Assembly: GCA_950295325.1 (NCBI GenBank)
Contig: OX485804.1
Coordinates: 62,588,533-62,652,532, forward strand
Direction of reading: 5' to 3'
DNA: 64,000 nt
From: Polytrichum commune
Lineage: Eukaryota > Streptophyta > Polytrichopsida > Polytrichales > Polytrichaceae
Within the stretch, counting starts at the first letter, position 1. Every line of letters starts with the position of its first letter. A program made the position numbers and the translations under genes. Below, one piece after another: positions 1 to 57,739 of the stretch. The notes beneath the pieces are model-generated. The model made no database searches and was not told where the DNA came from. It saw only the letters and a program-made list of their open reading frames with translations.

Positions 1-3000
1 GGTTGAATTCAAAACCTTCTTGGTTTGCATATCGATAGCAGAAAATACTATGAGGACGCCATCATCAGACAAGATGGACTTGCACAAGGACATTGTTGCA
101 ACCATCCAGTTCTTGTCATATTTATTCCAAAGAGGAATTTCAGCAAGTCTATTGGAGAGGTTGAAGTCAAGACCGTCGGGAAATTGCAGAAAAACCAAGT
201 CAACGGCAAATGGAGTCGGACTTCCCATGACATGAAATTCGCGATTGTCTTTGAACTGAAATACCACAACATATCACAATATAAGACACAAAATAAAATC
301 CAAATGAAAATAAAAACATTACAGAAAATACCAAAACAATAATACTTACGTTTTCAAGAAATGTCCGCCATTGGATCCACTCAGGAGGGCCTACTTCAAC
401 CCCTTCAGACTTGTTCTTGACAGCAGTAGATCGAGCAAAAGAGAGTGTGAGAAAGTTCTTCAGTATGAATAACTATTTTCTCAAAACATTCGTTGGCACA
501 CGATGAATAGTGTCATAGGTGCTCGAGTAATGGAATTCCAATACATCGCACCCAGACTTTGAACTTTCGCCTCCAAGTGGATTCTTATCCAAATCATTGG
601 AAAGAACAAGCAATTCTTCATGTTGTGAAATTTCCGATTGTTCTTGTATTTTGGTTTCAGGAACATGTTTCCTCTTACGACGTTTTGTCTCTTTTGGTTC
701 TGGCTCTCTAAGTTTAAGCTGCACAATTTGTGCTTGCAAAATTGCAGTATCACGAGGATCCACATTTTTAGCATCATTTATCTGACGGATTGTCTTCTCA
801 CTTGACAGACATGCATCCTTAGGACAATCAAGATACCAACCACAATCCTCATAGTGTCGGAGCGACCAATCCAAACAAATCTCAGTAGTGAACATGCATG
901 AACCTCCTGCACCAGTGTCACGCCAATTTGGGAAAAAACGAGGTTCCCCTATAACGCATTTATCTGGAATCAAAACATATCGAAAATACCTACACACAAA
1001 AATATTGTAAGTCAAATATTCCATGACAATTTGACAAATGGAATCAAAAAAATCAAAAAAATAATAAGATTAGGTTGTACCTGTATAATACACGTTTCAT
1101 AGCAAGATCAATATTAGGTTACTCATCCCAACCGTTGTGTTTTTTAACTTTTCCGCTTTGGAATTCACGATAGAATATTGAATTGAAAGCCACAAACTTC
1201 CAGGTTTGGATATACTCGGAGAGAATAGGCACATCTGTAGGCAACTGGAGAAGAGATGAAAGAATACTTTGAAGCTCTTCGATAGCCTTTTTTTCCAACT
1301 GTGCCCAATATGTAGACTTTGATAACCAATCATCAAGTGCAGAATCAGAGAGGGGCGATTTCGGGAAATGCAATGCATCTTTGTCAAATCTATTGCCATT
1401 CCAAAGCTTGAGCCATCCAACTTTGACTTCTGCATCCACATTACTGACAGCAACACGATGAAGTTTCTCTTGTAGCATTTCAGGCACCGAAAATGAACCC
1501 CAATGGTGCTTAACTTCTTCAAGGAAAGCAGAGGTAAGGTTGATATCAGCAATCGCTAGTTGTTTCGTAAAACTAGAAGATAACATTGCACATTTTTCGT
1601 TGACAGCTGCGGATATTGCTTTTGAAACTCCGTCTGATGTCCGTTCAAGATGATGAATTTCATTGTACTGGTTGAGAGCAATATCGCTAGCCTCAGCAAG
1701 TTCTTGCTGAAAAATCAAACAAAAATCAATATTTATAAATTCATATAGATGTAATGTAAAATGAAGGTGAATAAACATAAGGCACATATTAGCAATGGTA
1801 GAAGAACTTACACTGTACATGTAATCCAAAAAAATTGGTCGTGCCAAAGAATACCAAGTTTCGACGGACTTCTCCTCACATCGTTTATAACTCTTTGGAT
1901 CCAGTTGCTTTCTGAAGGAAGTCAAAGGCATGGTGCCAATACTTTACATCCGATATAAAGTATGCACCAAATTGGTGGATACGTGAGAATTTTCGGTTGA
2001 CCTAAAAGAAACATTAAATTGATTAGATTCATGATGATATAATTTGGAAAACAAAATATAAACTAGAAATAAGTGTAAAAAAATAGGTAAGAACATTACT
2101 TGTTGATGTCATGCATAGCAGTCAACAAACTTGGAATGTCGTCAGGCTCGGGCGCCAAAATGATAGAATCCACAAAGACATGACGTTCATAATCTTTGGT
2201 ATATACGCGGTCAATATAATTTTTCCAAGCAAGAAATCTGTGATTTCCATCCCATATAAAAAACATCTTGTTCTTGTATGACGTCAATGACAAATCTATA
2301 TCCAATTGAGATTCAAACAGGGCATTGGCTTGAGCCCAATTTGGGCTCCAAGATGCGCGAATCTCATCATCCACGAATTGAAAGTTTCCCTTAGAATCGG
2401 TGGTCGATATATAAAACACACGGTCACCATCACGATAACCATTGAAAAAATCAACCTCCAATTTAGTAATGTCACCCTTCAAAGCAGGACGCACAATCGG
2501 CATAGGAACCATGCGACATAAGGGTACACGCAAGCGAGCATTAGGTCCAGCACGGATTGAAGAAATTGTGGAAGTGGAATTGACCTTTCGTTTGTTCGTA
2601 AGCTCCCACACTTTCTCTTGATAAGTTTTATTATCACCATCATTATCTTCATCCGAGTCAAAATCATCGAGAGATTCATTTATTTTTTTCTTTTTCTTAT
2701 TATAAAGATTTGACGATATGTCATGATGATGATGAACTTGTTGAGATGGACGATCTTGAGTTGAATGCATTGTGGAATCATCATCAGTAGAAATAAGAGT
2801 CATTCTTTCCAAATCCATTGATTGGTCCTAAAACAAATGAAATAAGTTTCATAAATATTTCAAAACAAGTAGCAACACATTAGCAATAACATTACAAAAA
2901 CAACAGCAATAGCAACAACAATAACAACAGAATACCACGAACACAGGGAAGAATGACAAAAATTATCCTAGACACAGTCATTTGCACCTTTAAATATTGT

Positions 3001-3082
3001 ACAATTAGGATGGCCGCTCACCCCAAAACTACAAGGCCAGACCCTGTGCGTCCAACTACAGGTCTAACAAAGTTGGACGCGA

Positions 3083-3779
3083 GGTTTGGGTCAAACGACC
3101 CAAACCATGCTCACAGTTTGGGTCGTTCGACCCAAACTAGGCAGACAGTTTGGGTCGATCTACCCAAACTAGGCTCACAGTTTGGATCGGCCGACCCAAA
3201 CTAGGTAGACAGTTTGGGTCGATCAACCCAAACCATGCTCACAATTTCGGTCGACCGACCCAAACCAGGCTCACAGTTTGGGTCGATCGACCCAAACTAG
3301 GCTCATAGTTTGGGTCGGCCGACCCAAACTAGGCACATAGTTTGGGTCAGCCGACCCAAACTAGGTAGACAGTTTGGGTCGATCGACCCAAACTAGACTC
3401 ACAGTTTGGGTCGATCGACCCAAACTAGACTCACAGTTTGGGTCGATCGACCCAAACTAGACTCACAGTTTGGGTCGACCGACCCAAACTAGCCTCACAG
3501 TTTGCGTCGGCCGACCCAAACTAGCCTCACAGTTTGGGTCGACCGACCCAAACTAGGCACACAGTTTGGGTCGGCCGACCCAAACTAGGTAGACAGTTTG
3601 GGTCGATCGACCCAAACTAGGCTCACAGTTTGGGTCGGCCGACCCAAACTAGGTAGACAGTTTGGGTCGATCGACCCAAACTAGGCTCACAGTTTGGGTC
3701 GGCCGACCCAAACTAGGTAGACAGTTTGGGTCGATCGACCCAAACTAGGCTCACAGTTTGGGTCGGCCGACCCAAACTG
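3083..3779. repeat. Tandem array of about 22 palindromic 32-bp units (array A)
   Basis: Each unit is a near-perfect or perfect palindrome of 24 bp with core TTTGGGTCGATCGACCCAAA, followed by an 8-bp spacer such as AGGCTCAC or AGGTAGAC. The central four bases vary among GATC, GGCC, GACC and others. In the last seven units GATC-centred copies with one spacer alternate with GGCC-centred copies with another, giving a 64-bp higher-order repeat. Degenerate units sit at the left edge (3083-3280). The array lies in intron 1 of the leftward gene. Confidence 0.95.
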
Positions 3780-4012
3780 TCCGCAATTTACGCCTGATTA
3801 TGCGCAATTACCCAGTCACCACGAAAGTGCAAACAAACCTTGTACTGCACCTGTAGATGAGAGAGCTTGCAGCAATGAGCTCAGGTCCGACGGAGGAGAG
3901 AAAAGAGACTCAATGCTTTGGGGTTGTGGCAATTTATACTACTTGTCCCTGCAGCCATATTTAGCATGGCTCTTCGTGGCCCCGCATAGCCGCTAGAAAG
4001 TTGCTAGCGCAC

Positions 4013-4215
4013 ACCCTGTGCGTTAACGCACAGAGTCTACTTGCCCAACTTTGCCCAACTTTGCCTCTAGCTAGGCAAGTAGACCCTGTGCGTTAACGCA
4101 CAGGGTCTGCGCTGGCAACTTTCTAGCCACTATGCGTTACCGCATACACCTTGTGCGTTAGCACATAAGGCTTGTGCGTTAGCACATAGACCCTGTGCGT
4201 TAACACACAGGGCCG
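4013..4215. repeat. Palindrome cluster, left block of array B
   Basis: Two full copies of the palindrome with core CCTGTGCGTTAACGCACAGG (near 4015 and 4084) are followed by decayed or half-length versions (GTGCGTTAGCACA and similar) to about 4212. The sequences between them (CAACTTTGCC, GCAACTTTCTAGC) resemble the spacers of the main block at 4678-5220. No gene is seen in the 4216-4677 gap. Confidence 0.85.
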
Positions 4216-4677
4216 AGACGTGAATTTGGAAAAAAACGTGTCTGGAATTTGTAGATTTGCGAAAACTTGTAAAATCTGGAAAAAATGCTAATGGGATCCA
4301 AAAAAAAAACAAAAATATGCTATATTATCTAAATTTCCGTAGCTACAAATGCTTCTGATATTTTGTTTTGGTTTGAAATGATTTTCTTTTCTCATTCTTC
4401 TATCTGTTTCCTTGTTTTGGGCCACCTCGTAGATTTTGGGTTTCGGGACAGAAAAAAATTTATGCTATTTTGTGTCATTTTCTAGCTCCTATAACGTATT
4501 GCATGAGTACTTGAATAGTCATATTTGTCATTTCTTGCATTCTAACCTCGTTTTGAATAGTTATTTTGCTCCTATGTTCTGAACATCGATTTAAATTCAT
4601 ACAATAGATATTTGTTTTAATTTTAGGCTCTCCTAGTCGTTTTACCTCCCAACTTTGGGCTTCTTAAGTTGCGCTTA

Positions 4678-5220
4678 CGAACCCTGTGCGTTAACGCACA
4701 GGGTTTCTCCTCCCAACTTTGGCCTTCCTAAGTTGCGTTTATAAACCCTGTGCGTTAACGCACAGGGTTTCTCCTCCCAACTTTTGGCCTTATTAAGTTG
4801 CTCTTACAAACCCTATGCGTTAACGCACAGGGTTTCTCCTCCCAACTTCGGCCTTCCTAAGTTGCTCTTATAAACCATGTGCGTTAACGCACAGGGTTTC
4901 GACTTCCAACTTTTTGCCTCCTAAGTTGCTCTTATAAATCCTGTGCGTTAACGTACAGGGTTTCACCTCCCAACTTCTCGCCTCTTAAGTTGCTCTTATA
5001 AACCCTGTGCGTTAACGCACATGGCTTCGCCTCTCAACCTCTCTTCTCTTAAGTTGCTCTTATAAACCCTGTGCGTTCTCCTCCTGACTTCTAGCCTTCC
5101 TAAATTTCTGTTATATACCATGTGCATTGACGTATAGGGTTTCTCCTCTCCAATTTATAACCTCTATAAATTGCTACTACATGACATGTGAGTGAACGTA
5201 CAAGGTTCTCCGTCCTAACT
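4678..5220. repeat. Tandem array of about 9 palindrome-plus-spacer units of 62-64 bp (array B)
   Basis: Each unit holds a palindrome of up to 28 bp centred on GTTAAC (core CCTGTGCGTTAACGCACAGG), then a spacer of the type TCTCCTCCCAACTT...CCTAAGTTGCTCTTATA. About seven units are well preserved (4678-5090); the last two (5115-5220) are decayed. The palindrome sequence has no similarity to array A, yet both arrays have the same architecture and lie in the same intron. Confidence 0.92.
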
Positions 5221-5548
5221 TACAACTTATGCACTATCAAATTAAGTGAACGTTGAACTGACTTACCTTTTTGTTTGTCGTCTTCTTTGAACTCGTCTTC
5301 AATTCGGACTCTGATATACGATCGTCTACATCTTCTTTGCTCTTTGCACCTTCATCATCCTCCATCGCATCAAAATCCAATGTCTTCACAGTTTCTTCTA
5401 CCGTACTCAACAAGTTTATTTTACCTTCCTTTTTTGCATCATTCTTTCCCACACTGAGTCTGAACTTTTTTTTCTCGGAAGTGAAATACAAAGCTTTCCT
5501 ACGTCTTCTGTTCGGCCTCACGGGTGTTCTCTCTACATCGTCTACCAT

Positions 5549-6069
5549 CGTTGGTATCTATGATATGTTTTCTATCAGGTACTATCATTTATTCTTCCAA
5601 TGTATCTATCTTACAAAATCCGGCGTATATTACGATCACATATTGTAATTGGCGTTCAATGAACGAGATATTTCAACGCGTTTGTCATTATGTGTTTATT
5701 TTTGTTATATCGCCAAAATTTTCTGACACCTACTTTGTTCTATTCATAATGATCAATAATTTATTTTTCCAACCAATTTTAATTCTTTCTACATCTGCGT
5801 CAGTCCACACATATATATTTTAAATTTCTACCAATCCTTTTAGTATTTGACGCCGTTTTGTGTATATCTTGCTCGTAAATAGTCTCTGACTATTATTGTA
5901 TTATGTCCACTTCTGTATTATTAGATGCTATGTATCACACGCTTTCATCTCCATCCATTATTGTATCACACGTTTTCGTTTTCATTCATTTCCTCACACA
6001 ACTCTATACAAAAACAACATTCACCCCATATTTTTGTGATGTGTTGTTCATATGTTCTTTTAATTTTCT
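5549..6069. promoter_or_regulatory. Shared gap between two divergent genes
   Basis: About 520 bp of AT-rich DNA separates the ATG of the leftward gene (5548) from the ATG of the MULE transposase (6070). It has no palindrome units and no convincing ORF. By position it would hold both promoters; no specific core element was recognised. Confidence 0.4.
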
Positions 6070-9000
6070 ATGGCTACCATTAGAGCTCATGGATCTTTTG
6101 TTCCCTTCATCTTGCCACTCCAAGTTGATGGTCATGTGAGTCTTTCAGAGAATTTACTTAGTTTGAGATTCAACCTCCAGATAGGAACCATGTATTTAGA
6201 ACATGAGATGTACTCTGCAGATGGAGAGGTGTATGAAACGATTTTGGTTCCAAAAAATAGAACTGATGTTGGTTTTATGTGGATCTTAGGACCTGGTTCA
6301 TTTAGGGTGATAGGACTTTCTGAGTCTCAAATGCAAGCTTCAACTGTCATTTTGACAAACGAATCCGGTACATCCACAGTTCAAATTCCCTCTATCACAC
6401 ATCTTAAGGTGGAACCCCTTGATGATAGTGTATTTGTGCTATCAGATTCAGAAGATGACATTTGTGCATCTGTTGATCTTTCAAACACATCGCCATTTCC
6501 ATTTAGAAGTGTAGCCAAATACCTTTGCGGTCTTATGTACAAAAAGGTGGTTCCCCAAATCTCACCTTCTCAACGTCCTCCACTACACCCTTCACCTTCA
6601 TCTACAGGGTTGACTATGGTTGATGCCTTGAAGCTGACAAAGTCAAGAAAAAGATCAAAGTCCGATCTTGCATCCATTGATTTTGACAGTATAGATGTTC
6701 GTGAAGTCAAGTACTTACCATCTTCTTTTAATGGTGATATTTTATTTCTCTTGCCTCCTGTGGCACTCAAAGCTCCAAGTACGTATGGTCGCTCAATGGA
6801 CGGCATGGACAAGATGTGCGACGGTCACCCTTGGTGCACCACCAAACCACGAATATCCAAAATGACTTTGGACTGTCCTTCCGGCGCTCTACTTGTGCTG
6901 GTCATCTCCAATGTCATAATGACTACTGTGATTACATGAATCGTAATGGGGGCCTCCGGAACAACACTGAATGGGCCGGTTCAACTCCTATCCCATTTGT
7001 TGTGGGTGTTGTTCCCCCTACTAAGTCCACTGTCGAGTGTAAGGTATGTCGTTCCACACCTGTATGCATTGCTTTGTGTAATGCTCGAATCATATACATT
7101 CACTCCACATCCGTTGGAATGTCCAGGGCTTGCATTCATCTTGGTGTACATGATCATCCTGTGGCCAATGGCACATGCCGTGAATCATTGGACATGGCAT
7201 ACCAATGCGTTGCAAATGAAGTATTGAAAACACCCACAGCAAAAAATTCAGCCATAGTTATGGCTGCGAGCAAACAATTCTTGGCCGATTACCTTCTCAA
7301 ATCTCCCGCAAATGTCGAAGGCCATCACTTGGTTGGTTCATCCCTAGAGGTCGTCATGGACAAATTAAGCACTCTTGCCTCTCCAAATTGTCGTAACTTT
7401 GTATCTGGATCAAAGCGTTTTTTGCGTAGTGGAATGGGAACTATGGATAGTATTATGGCGCTCAAAGACCACTCTGCTTTCAAATTCGTCCATGGTAGTC
7501 GGTTCCCAGGGCAGTCAAAGGACAAAGTGTTTGTTTTTAAGATGTCTGTAGACCTTCCAGGTAGTGGTGTGGAGCTTGTGAAGAGGATGCAAGTCGGTGG
7601 GAATATGGAAAATTCATGGATTATGTTTGATCATGTCAAACGTTTGAAGGACTGGACGACCATGGCTTGCCATGTGTACGACAGTCGATACTGTAAAGTG
7701 TTGACTATTGCGTGTTGTGACATGCAATCTGAAGATGGTGCAGCGTAAATTCTCTTTTGGGAAAATTTGAATGCTGTCATGGCAGATAATGATGTACCAA
7801 ACGTAAACTTCAAAGGGTTTATGGCTGATAGTGCTCAAGCTAATTGGAATGCGGTGAGGGCGATTTACGGGGATGGTGATCCAAGTCTACCCATGGTTGC
7901 ACGTGAGCGTACATGTCTTTTCCATTGGTCCGCAAGCTTGGATAAGGTGACCTAAAAGTATATCAAACCATCCTTGCAATTTCAACACAAACAAATATGC
8001 AAGGATTACAAATACGCGAAAACAATGGACGACGCTGAGACCAAGTACCATGTGATTCGTTCTTGGTGGTTGTCATCTGGAGCTGCCTCCGAAGAAGGCA
8101 TCCTTGGCCTTTCAGAGTGGTTGGGATTTTGGCACTTTCGTTACAGACAATGGGATGGCCATATGCTACTTGTAAGTACATATCAAACTTCATTATTCAA
8201 TGTAATATATCCTATGTTTTTCTTCTTTTTTATCTTTCTGTGTTGTTCATAGGATATGACGTGGCAGCCATTTTGGGTTGAACGACCCAAACCTAGATAT
8301 ATAATCTATCTTATGTTTGTCTTATCCTTGTATTTGTGTGTTGTTCATAGGATATGACAATAGAAGAGCGTGCGGAAATGCCAACATGCAACCTTGCAGA
8401 GACTGCACACAACAAATGGCTCCAACAGTCCGGCAACAAGATGTCTTGTTTATATGAAGCTACAGTGGACGACATGATCCGTGCTTTCATGCAAATTGCA
8501 AATTACCGGACATGGTTGAAAGGGGGGTCTGATGGTAAAGGTCCTGATTCGGCATCCTTGAAACTCAAAGTGGCTGCCAGGTGTGGAGATCCAAAAATGT
8601 TGGCCGATGCCATGAAGTCTTATCCAGGGGCAGAAGACGTCAACACTAGAAATTGTGCATTGGAAGGGTCAGAGCTCTTTGGTTCCACCAAACGCAAATT
8701 CAACCTACCACCGGGTGCTGATTGTGACTCTCATCGACCCGACAAAGTGAACTATTCCATTCCTCGTCCGAACACCCGAGCAACTCGTCAACGCATAGAG
8801 GAATCGTTGAGTTCTACAATTCATGGTGTGGCTCATACTACATCCGTGTTAGAGACAGATTGTCTTGCTTCCAAGTGGCACATTGCAAGATTACCACCCA
8901 ACTCAGCCAAACGATGTTGGGCACTGCAGGCCATCACAGGGACTATGTGCAATGCCAAAGTCGGGACTGGGAAACATGGCACACCTGCTCCAACATACAA

Positions 9001-9718
9001 AGGGCTCAGGAAGGAATTTCGCTCTCCCAACAATGTGGAGTATGAATTTTGGTTTTGCCCTGACGACATCAAACGTTGTGTGAATGGCAGTAAGAAGAAA
9101 TATGTGTTGGACTGGCCTATAGTACCCAACACATGGCCGGTGAAGATAGGTACCAATCTATCGCGAGAGGAGGTTTTGGCACTTGAAGATGCTGGATTTC
9201 AACTACAGCAGAGGGAGGCATTGTCCCCTCGTCGTAGGCTTTCAACAATCGCAACTCTCTCCATCCCTCGCTCGCATTTTTCTATGCCACCAAACCCGGA
9301 CGCCCACCCTACATTCAGGTTTGGAAAGACAATGCGTCGTAATCCAACAGCACCGCTAGCGGATCACAAAAACAAATGGGAGAGCGCCGGGCTCATGGAG
9401 GGTTACTATGTGGTTGGGGTCACTGCCATTCCATATCCGGGCTTTGGAGTGATAATCAACATTGTCTCCAAGCAGGATATCACCTACCATGTCACAATTG
9501 GCCACATCCCGCATTGCACATGCCCGGATTTCACGAAAATGTCCTCTCATGCATTGGGAAAGAAAGGAAAATGGGTGTATTGTAAACATCTTTATTATGT
9601 GTTTAGATTTTTATGCAAGGTGGATTACGAGAGTGACAAGTTCATTCATGCACCTACATATACCTATAACGAGGTCATGCGACTACTTGAATTTGCTGGT
9701 ATTGTAGAGTGTGAGTAG
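6070..9718 (+). pseudogene. Mutator-like (MULE) transposase, decayed
   Basis: The exons are 6070-8171 and 8351-9718, with a GTAAGT donor and a TTCATAG acceptor. The N-terminal part has a possible SUMO-interacting segment, VFVLSDSEDD. A Cys/His-rich block follows (HLQCHNDYCDY, CKVC...C, HLGVHDHPV), reminiscent of FLYWCH or WRKY-GCM1 zinc modules. The DDE core shows a candidate first Asp in TIACCDMQSED, a second in GFMADSAQANW, the MULE C-x2-H motif in TCLFHW and a Glu in NLAETAHNKW. Near the C-terminus is a SWIM zinc finger, CTCPDF...YCKHLYYV. Damage: a one-base frame change near 6840 (the frame-1 ORF ends at 6939 and the frame-0 ORF continues), TAA at 7746-7748 and TAA at 7953-7955. The second exon is open throughout (about 455 codons). 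The family call is secure; this copy cannot be active as written. Confidence 0.9.
8172..8350 (+). other. Transposase intron with a duplicated 3' splice region
   Basis: The intron end is present twice. The segments 8208-8260 and 8306-8357 are similar and both finish GTTGTTCATAG|GATATGAC. Between them, about 8267-8293, lies TTGGGTTGAACGACCCAAAC, which matches the palindrome units of array A. Use of the first acceptor would add codons that soon reach a stop, so the second is the likely functional site. Confidence 0.7.
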
Positions 9719-9790
9719 TATTGCAAATGGTCTATTAAGTACCATATATTTGAATGTCAAAATATGACATGTTTTTGTTTGGATTTTTAT

Positions 9791-9796
9791 AATAAA
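9791..9796 (+). terminator. AATAAA polyadenylation signal after the transposase
   Basis: AATAAA lies about 75 bp after the transposase stop codon and is conserved in the duplicated 3' end near 10368-10373. Its function is inferred from position. Confidence 0.4.
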
Positions 9797-9909
9797 AATC
9801 AGCAATGGGCTGGAAGTATTTCAAATGATTCAGTAACTTCATTTCTATTTAGACTACGACCCAACCGTGAGCGGTTTGATTGATTGACATGGATAAATAA
9901 TAACAAGTT

Positions 9910-10112
9910 TCTAAAAATAAAAAATAATTGAGAAGATTCTACGCACATCCGCGTAGTAACGTCTTCTTGGTATCCGCCTATAAATTATTCCTGCTTTATC
10001 ACTAGCTCAATTTGGGATAACACCAGTCAATGTAACCAACCGGATTCGAACCCGGGTTGATACAGACCTAATACCAGTCTCTTACACAACTCGCATCCAC
10101 AGGCGGATGTCT
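9910..10112 (-). mobile_element. tRNA-derived SINE
   Basis: Read on the minus strand, the element begins near ACATCCGCCTGTGGATGCGAG. It has an A-box-like segment (GCGAGTTGTGTAAGAGAC) and, about 35 bp later, a clear B box, GGTTCGAATCC. It ends in a T-rich tail (TTATTTTTTATTTTTAG). The spacing of A and B boxes fits a tRNA-related RNA polymerase III promoter, while the rest is not a foldable tRNA gene. It sits between the transposase 3' end and its duplicate. No clear target duplication was found. Confidence 0.65.
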
Positions 10113-10189
10113 CAAAACCTAGTAGTTACCTACATATTGACTATTTCTAATATCTAATTTCCTTTCATTTGTAGATTCTGGGCCTTAAT

Positions 10190-10420
10190 TCAACCCGTGA
10201 GCAGTTTGAGTGGCTCACAATTATGGCACCTACATGTACGTATAATGAGGTTATGCACCTACTTGAGCTTGATGGTGTTGTGGAATGTGAGTAGTTGTGC
10301 AAGTGTTGGTTGTAACTACATGTATAAGGATGTCAATAAATGACATGTATTGGTTTGGATTATTATAATAAAAATCAGCAATGAATTGAAAGTATTTTAA
10401 ATGATCTATGGAAATAGGGC
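10190..10420 (+). repeat. Second, diverged copy of the transposase 3' end
   Basis: Bases 10224-10295 encode APTCTYNEVMHLLELDGVVE, closely matching the transposase C-terminus at 9649-9718 (APTYTYNEVMRLLEFAGIVE). The similarity continues through the 3' UTR, including TATAATAAAAATCAGCAATG. A shorter match (CCGTGAGCGGTTTGATTG near 9869, CCGTGAGCAGTTTGAGTG near 10196) lies at the inner edges. This is a partial tandem duplication later split by the SINE, or the end of a second element copy. Confidence 0.8.
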
Positions 10421-10538
10421 CCTTTCACTTGTGCTTCATTTAAAATATTGGCAATTTACAATTGAAAATATGCAATTAATTTGTCAAAATTTTGGTTGTG
10501 TACCCTAAACCCGTGTGTCTTTACTAAATTTGGAATCA

Positions 10539-10610
10539 TTGCTCATATGTTACTGCTCATTGCTCATGTGTTACTGCTCACCGCTCACCGCTCACTGCTC
10601 ATCGCTCATA
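10539..10610. repeat. GCTCAY minisatellite
   Basis: Repeated GCTCAT/GCTCAC hexamers interleaved with GTGTTACT units. A translation across it (10481-10915) has no recognisable protein features and is probably chance. Confidence 0.6.
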
Positions 10611-11719
10611 AGATAGCTTCCCTCCCCTCACATGAGCTCGTAACACAACAAAATAATGACCACTTCCCAACATGCTTAGAGTACTTCCCATTGCAGATGA
10701 ACGAAGTTGAGTGGGTTAAATGTAGAGTAGAAATCATCCATCAATCTAGAAGTTGTTTCTTGGATGCAAAATGGAAGCAACAAACAACCATAAATCATTT
10801 AGGGAGCACCAACCACGCACATAATTCACTGGCCGTGCCCATTTTGGGCCCAACTGTTTTGTCTCGGAACCCTAAGTTGGAAATAGAATTGGCATTGTTA
10901 AGGGACCACGATTAGGAATGCTAAATGCATGGATGTTGGGCATTAGAATGTGGGACATGATGAGGTTGATGCGTTTAATATCACATTAGAGTTATCCGTA
11001 AAGTCCCTCGGAGAGAGGGAGGAAGGAAACCGTGGGTTCGATCCTTCTATGAGAAAACTTTCCATTGACCCTAAAAATTCTAGAGCGTATTGTGGTTTGG
11101 TTAGATCATCTAAAAAGTAAGAATTCTAGAACTTAATTTTAAGTCAAAAAATGGCATCTCGTGAAGTTAAGGGTTAAGAGCTCGTTGGCTCCTTGTGTAT
11201 CGGAGCATGTTTTGAAAGTTGGGTGAAACTCTTGAGAAGTCTTCTTTCCACTTCTCAAACTTTGAGAAATAAAAACTAGAATCTAAATTAGGGTATGTGC
11301 ATGGGACCGTCGTTCTAAATCCTATGCAATGCTAGCTTGGCCCACCCAGCCTAGCAGGACAAATTAGGAAACCTAATTTTAATAGCCTAACACCACTCCT
11401 TGTGTATGATAATTTAAAGCATTAAGAAAACATGGATGACTTTGTGTTAATTCTCGTAAACTTGAAGTTTGGGACTAAATCCATGGTTTCATCCGCCTCA
11501 CTTTACAAACAACTCTATCATATGAAAATGAAATCACCAAAAATTTGCCTCCAAGTTTCATTAAAAACAAATTTTCATACACGCTCTACTTTGTGAGTCT
11601 AGTAGAATGTTTAACATGGGATACGGGATGGAAAGCAAGAATGTTATGCAAATCAACCCCTTCTCCTAGTGAGTGTAGGAGTTGCGCCCTCAACATTGGC
11701 AACAATCTACCCTCTCTTA

Positions 11720-12109
11720 GGGTTGGTTCTCACATGGTCTCAAGTACCAAGTCCCAAGTCACTTGAGGTCAATTTATGCAATGTCAGCCGTTGAGAGCAT
11801 GGAAGTTGGGACTTACCACTTCACATGAGATCCCAAGTCCTAAGTCCCAAGCATGACATGGATGTATACATGGTGTCATTTTTGGGAGGTGAGGCTCATG
11901 AATTGTGTTGAGAGTTGGGTCGAGCAAAAAACTAGACCCAACTCTTAACAAAAGTCTTGTGAATAGTTTTGCATAAAATAATCAAGATCCGACTTTAAAG
12001 ATGATTAACCATATTTTAATGGTGTCTCGAGACTCAAAAGTTGGGACTTCGCCTCCATGTTGGGACTTGCTGACTTGAGTGGGACTTGGGACCCCATGTG
12101 AACTGGCCC
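11720..12109. mobile_element. Tourist-like (PIF/Harbinger) MITE, copy 1
   Basis: A 390-bp element starts GGGTTGGTTCTCACATGG and ends CCCCATGTGAACTGGCCC, so the ends are inverted repeats. It is flanked by TTA on both sides, the 3-bp target duplication typical of PIF/Harbinger elements. It is similar along its whole length to the element at 50631-51019. There is no transposase inside, so it is non-autonomous. Confidence 0.85.
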
Positions 12110-53990: not shown

Positions 53991-56900
53991 TCATATTGGC
54001 AAACAATTGGAGGTCCTTCTTCTTAAGGATGAAGATGATTTCAACAAACAAGCACTCAGACTCTGTTGCAGAGTATCGTTGAGAGAGGACTGACCAACAA
54101 GCTGATGAGGGAGGTTGAAATTGTAGTCCTCCTGAGACCTCCTTCGCATATACAGGAACACCCCACCGGCAATGGCAACAACCGCTGCCAACACCCCGAT
54201 CACTATACCGAAGATGGCGCCCGTGGAATGGCTTGCTTTGTGAGAGCAATCTGGTAGCGATGGAACACCGCAGAGTCCTTGGTTATCTGCCAAATTGATG
54301 TACCCACCATGTACTCCAATGGTGTATATCGCCTCTGGGACTGGCCCAGCCAGATGATTGTTGTCAAGGCTCCTGCAAAATCAAAAGGAAGCATTTCATT
54401 AATGATGATGAATACAGAACATCAACATACACCATTCACATGATGATGGTACAATACATCAGAAAATACATGAGAGAGAGAGAGAGAGAGCTCTTACAGA
54501 TGTTGCATTTGTGCGCTGCCAAGGCTAATGGGAATGGCGCCTACCAGAGAATTATAAGACAAATCTCTGAATTTCACAAATAAACAAAAATATAAATCAG
54601 AACATCTGAAAACTTGGGTGGACTATGGAGCATGGCAGAGTACATAAACTAACTCCTTGGAACACTATGATGTCATTCTAACAGTTCGAGGCTCATAATT
54701 TGTTAGGTCCGATCATGCATTTTACGTGTTTGTGTCAACAAGTTACACAAGGAAAAGGAAGCATCATTTTCTGATTTCAAAATAATGAAGATGAAGACAC
54801 TATGAATGATGATGAAGTATGGAAAGAGAAAGAAATCACACACTAGAAGTCCTCGTCAGGGACTTGCTATGAATCATGCTTACAAAGAAATTAGGTTGTT
54901 TGTTCCCAAGCCTGAAGGAATGGGACCTGAAATTTGATTATTGCTGGCATTCCTGTGGTCCAATATCAACACATTAGAATGAGAACAAACAGAAAGATAA
55001 ATCTACTTGAAGTGCACTCTACGAATATTTTATAAAGTAAAAATGCTCTCATAACCGCAAAGCAGATAAGGGAACGAAAATAATGTATGTGGCAAAAGCA
55101 TATAGATCAGTTTCTTACATTGTTATGAGATGAGAAAGTTGGTTAATGTCTGGAGCGATATATCCTGTAATACCTTGCTGCGCAATGTTTCTGCAGTAGT
55201 CAAATTCAAGGTCGTTAGAATGACAACATTGCAACTTTTCGTCGACAACCAGAACAACATTAATCAGACACCCCTATCAAAAAAAACACCTGAATCAGAT
55301 AGCAATAACCTCATCCGTGGAACACAAATTTCATATTGAGAAAGGATTGATATCTGATCCACAGTGGAGTGGACTATACAAAAGCAAGTAGAATTCTGAG
55401 TGCGTACATGTGAGTGACAATGAGGGAGGCACCATCAGCGGCAAGATTACAAGTGACTCCTTCCCAGGCATCCCAGTCAGTGGGTGCGCAAGGATCTCCG
55501 TTCCATCCCAACCTCGAAGGAACATTTAATGTGTCTCTCAATGCATGCATAGCAGCAGCTGCTCAGAGCGAATGTCAAATGATGTCAGCAAATTTTCCAC
55601 CGACGCAGGAACTCCCAATCCACTCACTGGTCTTACTTGAGAAACAACATCAGAGACGGTTTGCCTTACTGATTAGAGTTGCAACCAATACCTAGGGTCA
55701 TTTACGAGCATAATTTACAGGATAAAATAGAAACATAATTAAAGACACCAAGATTTCAGTAACCAAGAGAATTCAGAAAAAGGCTGATAACTAGACATAA
55801 TTGGCGAAGATTACGCACCTTCTGTGAGGTTTGTGGCAATATCTGCTGGTACAACCGCAAGAACTTCCAGCCCACAGATGAGAGGGCTCCCTATGACCGG
55901 TACAAGTGAAATTGTGAGTTGCCCCCCAGTCAGATTCTTCACAGTGTAGACATAATCGAAAGCTGCATTAGCTCCGACTTGCTGGAACAAATCCAATGAG
56001 GGCAAGACTGTTAGCCCATTGATGGAAACATTGAACACACGTAACCCAGCGTTAATTACAGTTGGATCGATCTCCGCAAAGTGGAACCAAATCTGATAGT
56101 CCAACTTCGCATCCACAGTAAAATCATACACTATCGGGATGCCCGGCTGCGCTTCGATCCGACAGATTTGGTAAAGGCGCGCAGGCCAGTAATTTGGTGC
56201 CAAGTTTGACCCAGCGATGTTTGCCTGTGTGGACACGACTGCTCTCACATTGTTTGTGTACACATCATCTGCCTCCCAGGATCGTCCTCCAAGGTCGGTC
56301 ACATTGTCAAACCCTGGACCGAAAGAGGAGTTTCCCCCCGTCAACCTGCCATAGTCCACAAGGATCACATTCTGCCCCGTGACATTGGAATTGTAAGACA
56401 GATCATCCACTTTGAGAAGCTCAAGAGCTCCAATGACTGGAACATCTGTACCAATGCTGTAGAAGCAGATTGTTGCCACACTGTCGTGAATGTAAGCATA
56501 CAGATCTGAGTAGGCACCGAAGTTGCTATTATCATCGGCCCATGGGTACCGCCAACTGAACACCACAGTTCCTTCCACCGATACATCGAAACTCGGTGAG
56601 TGACTCAAATTGTCGTAGTTGTTGTAGGCGAAGAACATCTGAATTTGGTGTCTGCCCAATGGCACCGGTACTTCGTAGCAGTTCTTCTTGCCCTCCGAAA
56701 TGGGGAAGTAACGGAGCGTGCGTTCTTGTTCCCTGGGGAAATTCTCGGGGTTCATCACACTTCCTGAGTCACCAGCTGAAAAGAATCGATCCGCGTCCCA
56801 TGTTTGGTTGACGTTATTGAAAAACGTTTGGTTCCCTCCACAATCTATGCGCACATAATTGTCTGCCAAATTTCCCACATCGCCTGTACGTCATCATCTT

Positions 56901-57739
56901 GGCTAATCCACAAAAACTCAATTGTGTTCCTCTACTACACATCCTGTTTTGTATGAGACATGACATTGAGCAATTTCACCTACAAAAATCCACGATCAAT
57001 AGAGAAATGAAGAATGTTGAAAGGTAAATAGGTGTATGGACAAAGAGAAAGAGCACATTTTGGCTAATTCACACCAATTCAAATGTGATCCCCTAATACA
57101 CATGTTATTTTGAATGTTAAGCATGACATGAGAATTGCACTTCCAAAGATCAACATTCAAGAGAGAAATGCAAGGTGTTGAAAAGTACATTGGTCCATGA
57201 TCCACTTTGTCACCGAAGGACGAAGGGAGTGGGGTAAATTTCATGAATGGGTTAATCGGCAGGAGGAATTCCATGAATTGATGAGACGAACTTTAGGGAT
57301 GCAATTACAATCACTGTCGGAAAACTTCATGATAACATTTAAACCCTTAATGGGTATCTTTTCGAGAGGTGCTCAAGCAAACCTGGAGCTGCGATACAAA
57401 GAATCACATTTCGGTGTATTGGGTTGATGGGATCCAACTCAATGAGGTGCTATGGTCGCAATTTCTTTGTGCATTATGGGCTAACTGATGTACAGGAGAG
57501 GAATGTAGGTTGCAGAATGAACGATCCGTCTTGTAACCTAGTGCATTTATGACAGTCGCAGAATGTGGATTGCAGAACTAATAAAGTCACCAAACATACA
57601 TTATTTAACCCTTAGTGAGAATTGAAGACAAGATACTTAGTTGCGAAGAGGTGTTTGAATCCACACCTAGACCCTGCGCAAACACCGCGGGCAGGAAGGC
57701 CAGAAGCAACACCCACGCAGTTCGAGGAATCCCCGCCAT
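53991..57739 (-). CDS. RLP4-type receptor-like protein: malectin-like, LRR, transmembrane, no kinase
   Basis: Seven exons on the minus strand: 57739-57667, 56883-55819, 55558-55408, 55190-55119, 54952-54884, 54566-54498, 54372-53991. All junctions are GT-AG and in phase, giving 626 codons plus stop. Residues 1-23 form a signal peptide (MAGIPRTAWVLLLAFLPAVF, cleavage near AQG). Exon 2 encodes a tandem malectin-like region starting NYVRIDCGGN. Exon 3 holds the linker with GWNGDPCAPTDWDAWEGVTC. Exons 4-6 each encode LRR units (ITGYIAPDI, ISGPIPSGLG, LVGAIPISLG). The last exon gives an LCGVPSLPDC cap, one membrane segment (AIFGIVIGVLAAVVAIAGGV) and a cytoplasmic tail of about 70 residues, starting MRRRSQ, with no kinase domain. 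That architecture matches Arabidopsis RLP4 rather than the kinase-bearing relatives. A plasma-membrane cell-wall sensing role is inferred from the family. Confidence 0.92.
54471..54490. repeat. GA microsatellite next to an exon 6 donor
   Basis: About ten GA units lie a few bases inside intron 6 of the receptor gene. Confidence 0.85.

Follow-up and report, generated by a model that had tools for sequence, protein, structure and literature searches.

To our knowledge, sequence-specific self-protection by a DNA transposon has been worked out mainly for VANC of Arabidopsis. Here we compare with it, and with accessory genes of algal transposons, a two-gene element at the beginning of a 64,000-nucleotide stretch of the Polytrichum commune genome (hereafter the window; GenBank GCA_950295325.1, contig OX485804.1, C2:62588533-62652532 within the 408-Mb assembly, whose seven large contigs would fit the n=7 of a polytrichaceous moss), in which a transposase gene stands opposite a second gene, the partner, whose first intron holds two arrays of palindromes. 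In Arabidopsis, VANC21 binds a short motif and strips silencing, and related VANCs use other motifs (PMC5735166, PMC10398659); within introns of VANC21 and VANB21 the VANC21 motifs form fast-changing tandem repeats, and at VANA21 they lie upstream of the gene (PMC5735166). The Ectocarpus Sola1 element carries a ParB-like, N4/N6 methyltransferase gene opposite its transposase; such genes also occur in red and green algae, and their products have been proposed to bind the element that encodes them and to modify it (PMC12477816).

The moss element shares with VANDAL transposons a transposase separate from an accessory gene and short tandem motifs in the introns of the latter; in both, related families use different motifs, the number of array units changes fast and the accessory gene evolves faster than the transposase. 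The two differ in that the partner is of methyltransferase fold whereas VANC has DUF1985/DUF287 regions, and in that the motifs, which for VANC21 are the non-palindromic YAGTATTAY, take the form of 18-24 bp palindromes here. Anti-silencing is known for VANC and is suggested here by the layout. The VANDAL/VANC parallel drawn in an earlier sequence-only reading of the window holds for layout and intronic arrays but not for the protein. With the algal accessory genes the partner has in common its large size (1173 aa here, 1104 aa in Ectocarpus Sola1-1_Ec32), the N4/N6 methyltransferase domain and the position opposite a transposase; it differs in transposase type, in its land plant host, in a ParB part recognised only by eye and in the loss of the catalytic motif in the window subfamily, and palindrome arrays are not mentioned for the algal genes in the available part of the source. 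That reading had also proposed an undescribed type of two-component element: two genes in one element are indeed present, but a methyltransferase gene opposite a transposase had already been reported in algae (PMC12477816). In the open-access literature no Mutator-like element (MULE) with a methyltransferase gene was found, and reports of methyltransferase accessory genes were found only for algal transposons. By analogy, the moss element most likely works like VANDAL/VANC, its partner belonging to the methyltransferase-fold transposon accessory proteins with a putative ParB part.

Extent, genes and mobility of the element

Transposase and partner lie divergently within one pair of terminal inverted repeats (TIRs) and have spread together, at least some copies recently. 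The element is a single DNA transposon of 11,841 bp (C2:62587316-62599156), and window positions 1-10624 are its right-hand 90%; the feature had previously been taken to end at 9800, whereas it reaches 10624 and starts 1,217 bp before the window. Its termini, GGGGAGTGCTATCTTATGAGC on the left (C2:62587316) and GCTCATAAGATAGCTTCCCTC on the right, are inverted repeats of each other and are flanked on both sides by the target duplication CCCTCACAT(G), of 9-10 bp. E2, another complete copy at C3:17490700-17505460, shares these ends and is flanked on either side by a 10-bp target duplication, GTCCGTAGAC; the TIR core is GCTATCTTATGAGC. Because in both copies the two genes are enclosed by one TIR pair with its target duplication, they belong to one 11,841-bp element, and no second set of termini was seen in the window copy or E2; separate terminal repeats for the two genes would have counted against the proposal of the sequence-only reading.

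Alignment of 30 oriented transposase loci showed about 95% similarity up to window position 10624 and abrupt divergence beyond it: the right terminus GATAGCTTCCCTC is identical in 30/30 copies and is followed by 30 different flanks. These different right flanks indicate dispersed insertions rather than a conserved host locus, the case that the sequence-only reading had named as refuting its proposal. Some copies have identical 660-bp tails and the median pairwise divergence is 2.6%, so the element has moved recently. The check that this reading had proposed shows the two genes co-occurring in the same divergent order: partner exon 2 lies divergently upstream in 72 of the 93 scored transposase copies (median distance 5.4 kb; chance expectation about 0.4). 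Transposase counts are lower bounds, 93 copies having been scored from 3364 candidates in a first look. The visible features are as follows, in window coordinates unless stated.

1..10624, no strand: transposon, visible part; left terminus outside the window at C2:62587316 (position 1784 of L061, the fetched stretch left of the window)
Outside the window, minus strand: partner exon 7 (L061:2354-2813) and exon 8 (beyond)
1..255, minus: partner exon 6, with the initial stretch of the methyltransferase domain; runs on into L061
350..989, minus: partner exon 5; stop at 473 in the window copy, read through in E2
1081..1706, minus: partner exon 4; CAA to TAA stop near 1122 in the window copy
1812..2001, minus: partner exon 3; CAA to TAA stop near 1947 in the window copy
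2100..2827, minus: partner exon 2; WDGNHRFLAW motif, ParB-like by eye only
2828..5266, minus: partner intron 1; 2439 bp, GT-AG, phase 0 on both sides, holds both arrays
3084..3778, no strand: array A; 32-bp unit, 21.7 copies, Tandem Repeats Finder score 977, palindrome TTTGGGTCG-NN-CGACCCAAA
4645..5077, no strand: array B; 64-bp unit, 6.8 copies, Tandem Repeats Finder score 599, palindrome ACCCTGTGCGTTAACGCACAGGGT
5267..5548, minus: partner exon 1; ATG 5548, donor GTAAGT; open reading frame (ORF) and splice model confirmed in E2
5549..6069, no strand: divergent intergenic region of 521 bp, presumed bidirectional promoter
6070..8171, plus: 5' part of the transposase, interrupted in the window copy by a frameshift near 6830 and by stops at 7746 and at 7952
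8172..8350, plus: transposase intron; one A palindrome at 8272, a 7-unit array in E2 (11626-11818)
8351..9718, plus: 3' exon of the transposase, encoding 455 aa with a SWIM-like zinc motif, CxC...CxH
10536..10624, no strand: right TIR with subterminal GCTCAYY tandem units

The gene structure proposed from the sequence alone was borne out. The start codons at 5548 (partner, minus) and 6070 (transposase, plus) are 521 bp apart, where 520 bp had been given, and the 2.4-kb first intron with its two arrays and its in-phase junction of exons 1 and 2 corresponds to a structure that in E2 remains open through 1173 codons. There, eight exons with GT donors throughout and AG acceptors encode an open 1173-aa protein; at exon 8 the acceptor departs by a single base from the CAG that the window copy has. 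The window copy is decayed in both genes, with stops in each and a frameshift in the transposase. A segment comprising the transposase coding end and 3' flank (9650-9829) is duplicated 576 bp downstream at 10226-10405 with 81-84% identity.

At least 93 copies of the transposase 3' exon are present, 91-97% identical. Among young copies the transposase is under clear constraint: the ratio of non-synonymous to synonymous change is 0.26 in frame for the 3' exon and 0.34 for 7160-7950 (about 1.1 in the other frames there), while other frames across the transposase give about 1.0-1.15. The designation of this protein as a MULE transposase survives in part. Features shared with MULEs are the TIRs and the target duplication, whose length (9-10 bp for the window copy, 10 bp for E2) falls within the 8-11 bp of that group; a possible SWIM-like zinc motif and, by eye, a D...CxH pattern resemble theirs. 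The 1162-aa transposase gave no Pfam match to the MULE domain PF10551, which other elements of the same genome do match, and HHalign comparison with genuine MULE domains of this genome remained at background level; Pfam SWIM (PF04434) reached E=0.099 and 12.7 bits, below the cut-off of 19.6, although CxC...CxH is present. Placement in the Mutator-like superfamily is thus plausible from target duplication and ends, and because the transposase fails the Pfam MULE model the name MULE is to be used with care.

The methyltransferase-like partner protein

Profile comparisons support an N4/N6 amino-methyltransferase fold for the partner, which the sequence-only reading had described as an unrelated multi-exon gene. 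PF01555 (N6_N4_Mtase) matches exons 6-7 of E2 with E=3e-4, under the family cut-off, and matches a related gene in L070/L071, which holds the domain in one exon, with E=1.1e-7, above the cut-off; this relative is 22-36% identical over exons 2-7. A profile of three family members compared by HHalign with phage ParB-methyltransferases gave 96.9% probability over 200 columns, the maximum among 20 column shuffles being 0.8%. Motif I is recognisable (VVDLTCSTGAS). Motif IV, canonically DPPY, reads QFPN in the E2/window family, DVPE in a family whose partner is 43% identical, and DIPY in L070: the catalytic form (D/N/S)PP(Y/F/W) is absent from the first two and nearly intact in the third. Normal catalysis is unlikely in the window and 43% families because of QFPN and DVPE, and classical catalysis in the window subfamily is doubtful. 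The phage ParB-methyltransferase fusions (L073, L077-L080) share the methyltransferase part, with motif IV before motif I, and differ in an N-terminal ParB domain, for which no alignment with partner exons 2-3 was obtained.

The partner N-terminus appears ParB-like by eye (FIWDGNHRFFAW), from a DGNHRxxAW motif and the layout. No DUF1985/DUF287 match was obtained, Pfam giving N6_N4_Mtase alone in the partner segments scanned; tblastn returned no phage relatives of the partner, and a PDB search returned no useful ones. AlphaFold2 models of the methyltransferase region (6 rows) and of exon 2 (8 rows) had predicted local distance difference test (pLDDT) values of 40 and 35 and were unusable. In a profile search of the genome, PF02195 matches were confined to three small contigs, C10, C12 and C23, which bear canonical ParB and N6_N4_Mtase genes; the fused phage-like protein on C12 has its closest relatives in IMG/VR and in a Desulfofustis phage, and the three contigs probably represent contamination of the assembly by bacterial or phage DNA.

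Among young copies, partner exons 3 and 5 are constrained, with non-synonymous to synonymous ratios of 0.45 and 0.50 in frame against 0.8-1.1 in other frames. That the partner is a working gene is suggested more strongly by conservation of the protein across families 22-43% identical than by such ratios.

Palindromes, partner subfamilies and apparent exchange

Palindrome A (TTTGGGTCGNNCGACCCAAA) occurs 9,731 times in the genome and palindrome B (CCCTGTGCGTTAACGCACAGGG) 444 times, with 0 occurrences of either reversed control. Of 40 array-A places, 37 sit 209-647 bp upstream of partner exon 2, and 45 of the first 50 B sites listed are at most 5.5 kb from a partner copy. In the window, further single B palindromes stand at 4014, 4084 and 4191. 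Across 272 array-A units from 30 loci the arms carry 1.4-2.0 bits per position, compared with 0.2-0.5 for the central NN and mostly 0.4-1.1 for the spacer; individual copies have 0 to 22 units.

The identity of the palindrome tracks the partner subfamily. A sister subfamily with an 82%-identical partner (L065, L066) has no A palindrome and up to three B arrays with units of 53, 64 and 66 bp. In the family whose partner is 43% identical (L064, L067), introns 1 and 3 contain 52-, 85- and 213-bp arrays with a third quasi-palindrome, GGKTTCGGGACCGAAMCC, of which the genome has 250 (control 0); divergently upstream lies a transposase exon of 40% identity. Since these families carry other palindromes in the same layout, the arrangement is conserved and the palindrome replaced. 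The partner also diverges faster than the transposase, for example 80% against 94% identity. L064 appears to hold pieces of two elements; between two same-strand partner pieces, at 2700-3400, is a subterminal-looking repeat (CTCCGCTCTCCGCTCTACGCTCACATACTTGAGTTTCCCC), perhaps the end of a second-family element adjoining another copy.

For 21 transposases no divergent partner exon 2 was listed. They include a 91-93% identical group in which, in five cases, a PF01555 match lies 9.95-10.6 kb away on the divergent side. The one case examined, C1:9651093-9663700, carries the DIPY-type partner of 22-36% identity, and its tail differs beyond the position equivalent to window ~9878; an exchange of transposase and partner modules thus seems to have taken place. 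Transposases of 91-96% identity occur with partners 95%, 80% or 22-36% identical and with different palindromes, and one palindrome is shared by unrelated element families. Tentatively, partner and array might form a self-protection cassette exchangeable between backbones, elements trading or parasitising one another's anti-silencing or DNA-marking codes. Directly upstream of the DIPY-type partner, on the same strand, are ORFs with kinase-like motifs by eye (LGRGSYGVVWK, IGDWGSA; L071:942-2361, C1:9657341-9658760), two of which were scanned and gave no Pfam match.

Possible roles of partner and arrays

We propose, with a probability of about one half, that the partner is a self-recognition and anti-silencing protein acting on the arrays of its own element, by binding where catalysis has been lost. 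In this model the palindrome arrays would be bound by the partner of the same element, probably in dimeric form, or by a complex that includes the partner, and the element would thereby be kept free of host silencing, much as VANC binds tandem motifs in VANDAL introns. Having lost the catalytic motif of the methyltransferase, the partner of the window subfamily would act chiefly through binding, while that of the DIPY-type sister subfamily may still methylate; the transposase would act on the subterminal GCTCAYY repeats, which are distinct from the arrays. Self-recognition and anti-silencing is the most likely reading because of the parallel with the VANC layout and because the algal ParB/methyltransferase proteins were suggested to bind their own elements. 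Several results weigh against it. In-frame constraint is weak in partner exons 2 (0.60 versus 0.76-0.80) and 4 (0.58 versus 0.65-0.80); the ParB-like DNA-binding region of exons 2-3 was not supported by HHalign against the phage ParB-methyltransferase alignment (0.4%, as in shuffles); and sequence similarity to VANC was not demonstrated for the partner. In the DIPY-type element, which has the most canonical methyltransferase, the 4.8 kb that precede the methyltransferase exon show no palindrome array. Lastly, 81 of the first 100 A sites listed fall in three stretches of another element type, so that the specificity of palindrome A is not clean.

This other type, represented by L069 (C1:1180900-1190899), is a separate high-copy element with at least 142 protein matches whose gene has TTTGGGTCGNNCGACCCAAA palindromes in its introns and which also carries them in a 64-bp array; the L069 stretch was read and the other two were assigned to its type from site spacing. 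Its gene has no detectable sequence relation to transposase or partner, and its protein shows methyltransferase-like motifs (FDPL, NVFGGSK) by eye only, with HHalign at 2%. Palindrome A, which as sampled lies mostly in the L069 family, is not simply a private site of the element described here, and the palindromes might instead be sites for a factor of that family or of the host on which the element hitch-hikes. We regard this as unlikely, since no such sharing was observed for palindrome B or the third palindrome and palindrome type follows partner subfamily. Similarly improbable is that the partner is an active DNA methyltransferase writing N4-methylcytosine or N6-methyladenine on its own element at the palindromes. 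Such a role was proposed for the proteins of Ectocarpus Sola1 and of green and red algal transposons (PMC12477816) and would suit the above-cut-off PF01555 match and DIPY motif of the L070/L071 gene, but it is opposed by QFPN and DVPE in the window and 43% families and by the array-free stretch of the DIPY-type sister itself.

The arrays might also act as RNA, with pre-mRNA hairpins giving rise to small RNAs or controlling splicing, or be neutral tandem repeats of no function. Plants make small interfering RNAs from such repeats, the predicted fold of the array transcript is extremely strong (z = -41), and tandem repeats turn over fast by themselves. Arm substitutions in A, however, are one-sided in 146 cases and symmetric in 4, indicating no compensatory pairing; neutral drift, for its part, leaves unexplained both the fixed arms beside a drifting spacer and the new palindrome in the same intron of a 43%-identical family. 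An RNA or neutral role seems rather improbable. An Rfam scan of the window found no family. Arrays inside elements help some transposases, and the palindromes in the transposase intron, expanded in E2, would fit transposase binding sites or a transposition enhancer; yet the termini bear a different repeat, GCTCAYY, and transposases 93-94% identical occur with different palindrome sets, which makes this the least probable of the explanations considered.

If the self-recognition model is correct, the combination of an accessory protein with an intronic motif array has evolved repeatedly, here with another fold, methyltransferase-like and often lacking its catalytic motif, and with three unrelated palindromes in one genome. 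Many young copies together with several subfamilies would allow a direct test of protein-motif co-evolution, the 18-24 bp palindromes offer defined sites for binding tests, and methyltransferase accessory genes would be extended from algal transposons to a land plant. Elsewhere in the window, a malectin-like gene, which like the GT-AG introns points to a plant, lies on the minus strand at 55811-56890 (PF12819, E=1e-48), and just upstream of it, at 56895-57194, is a 161-bp tandem repeat in two copies.

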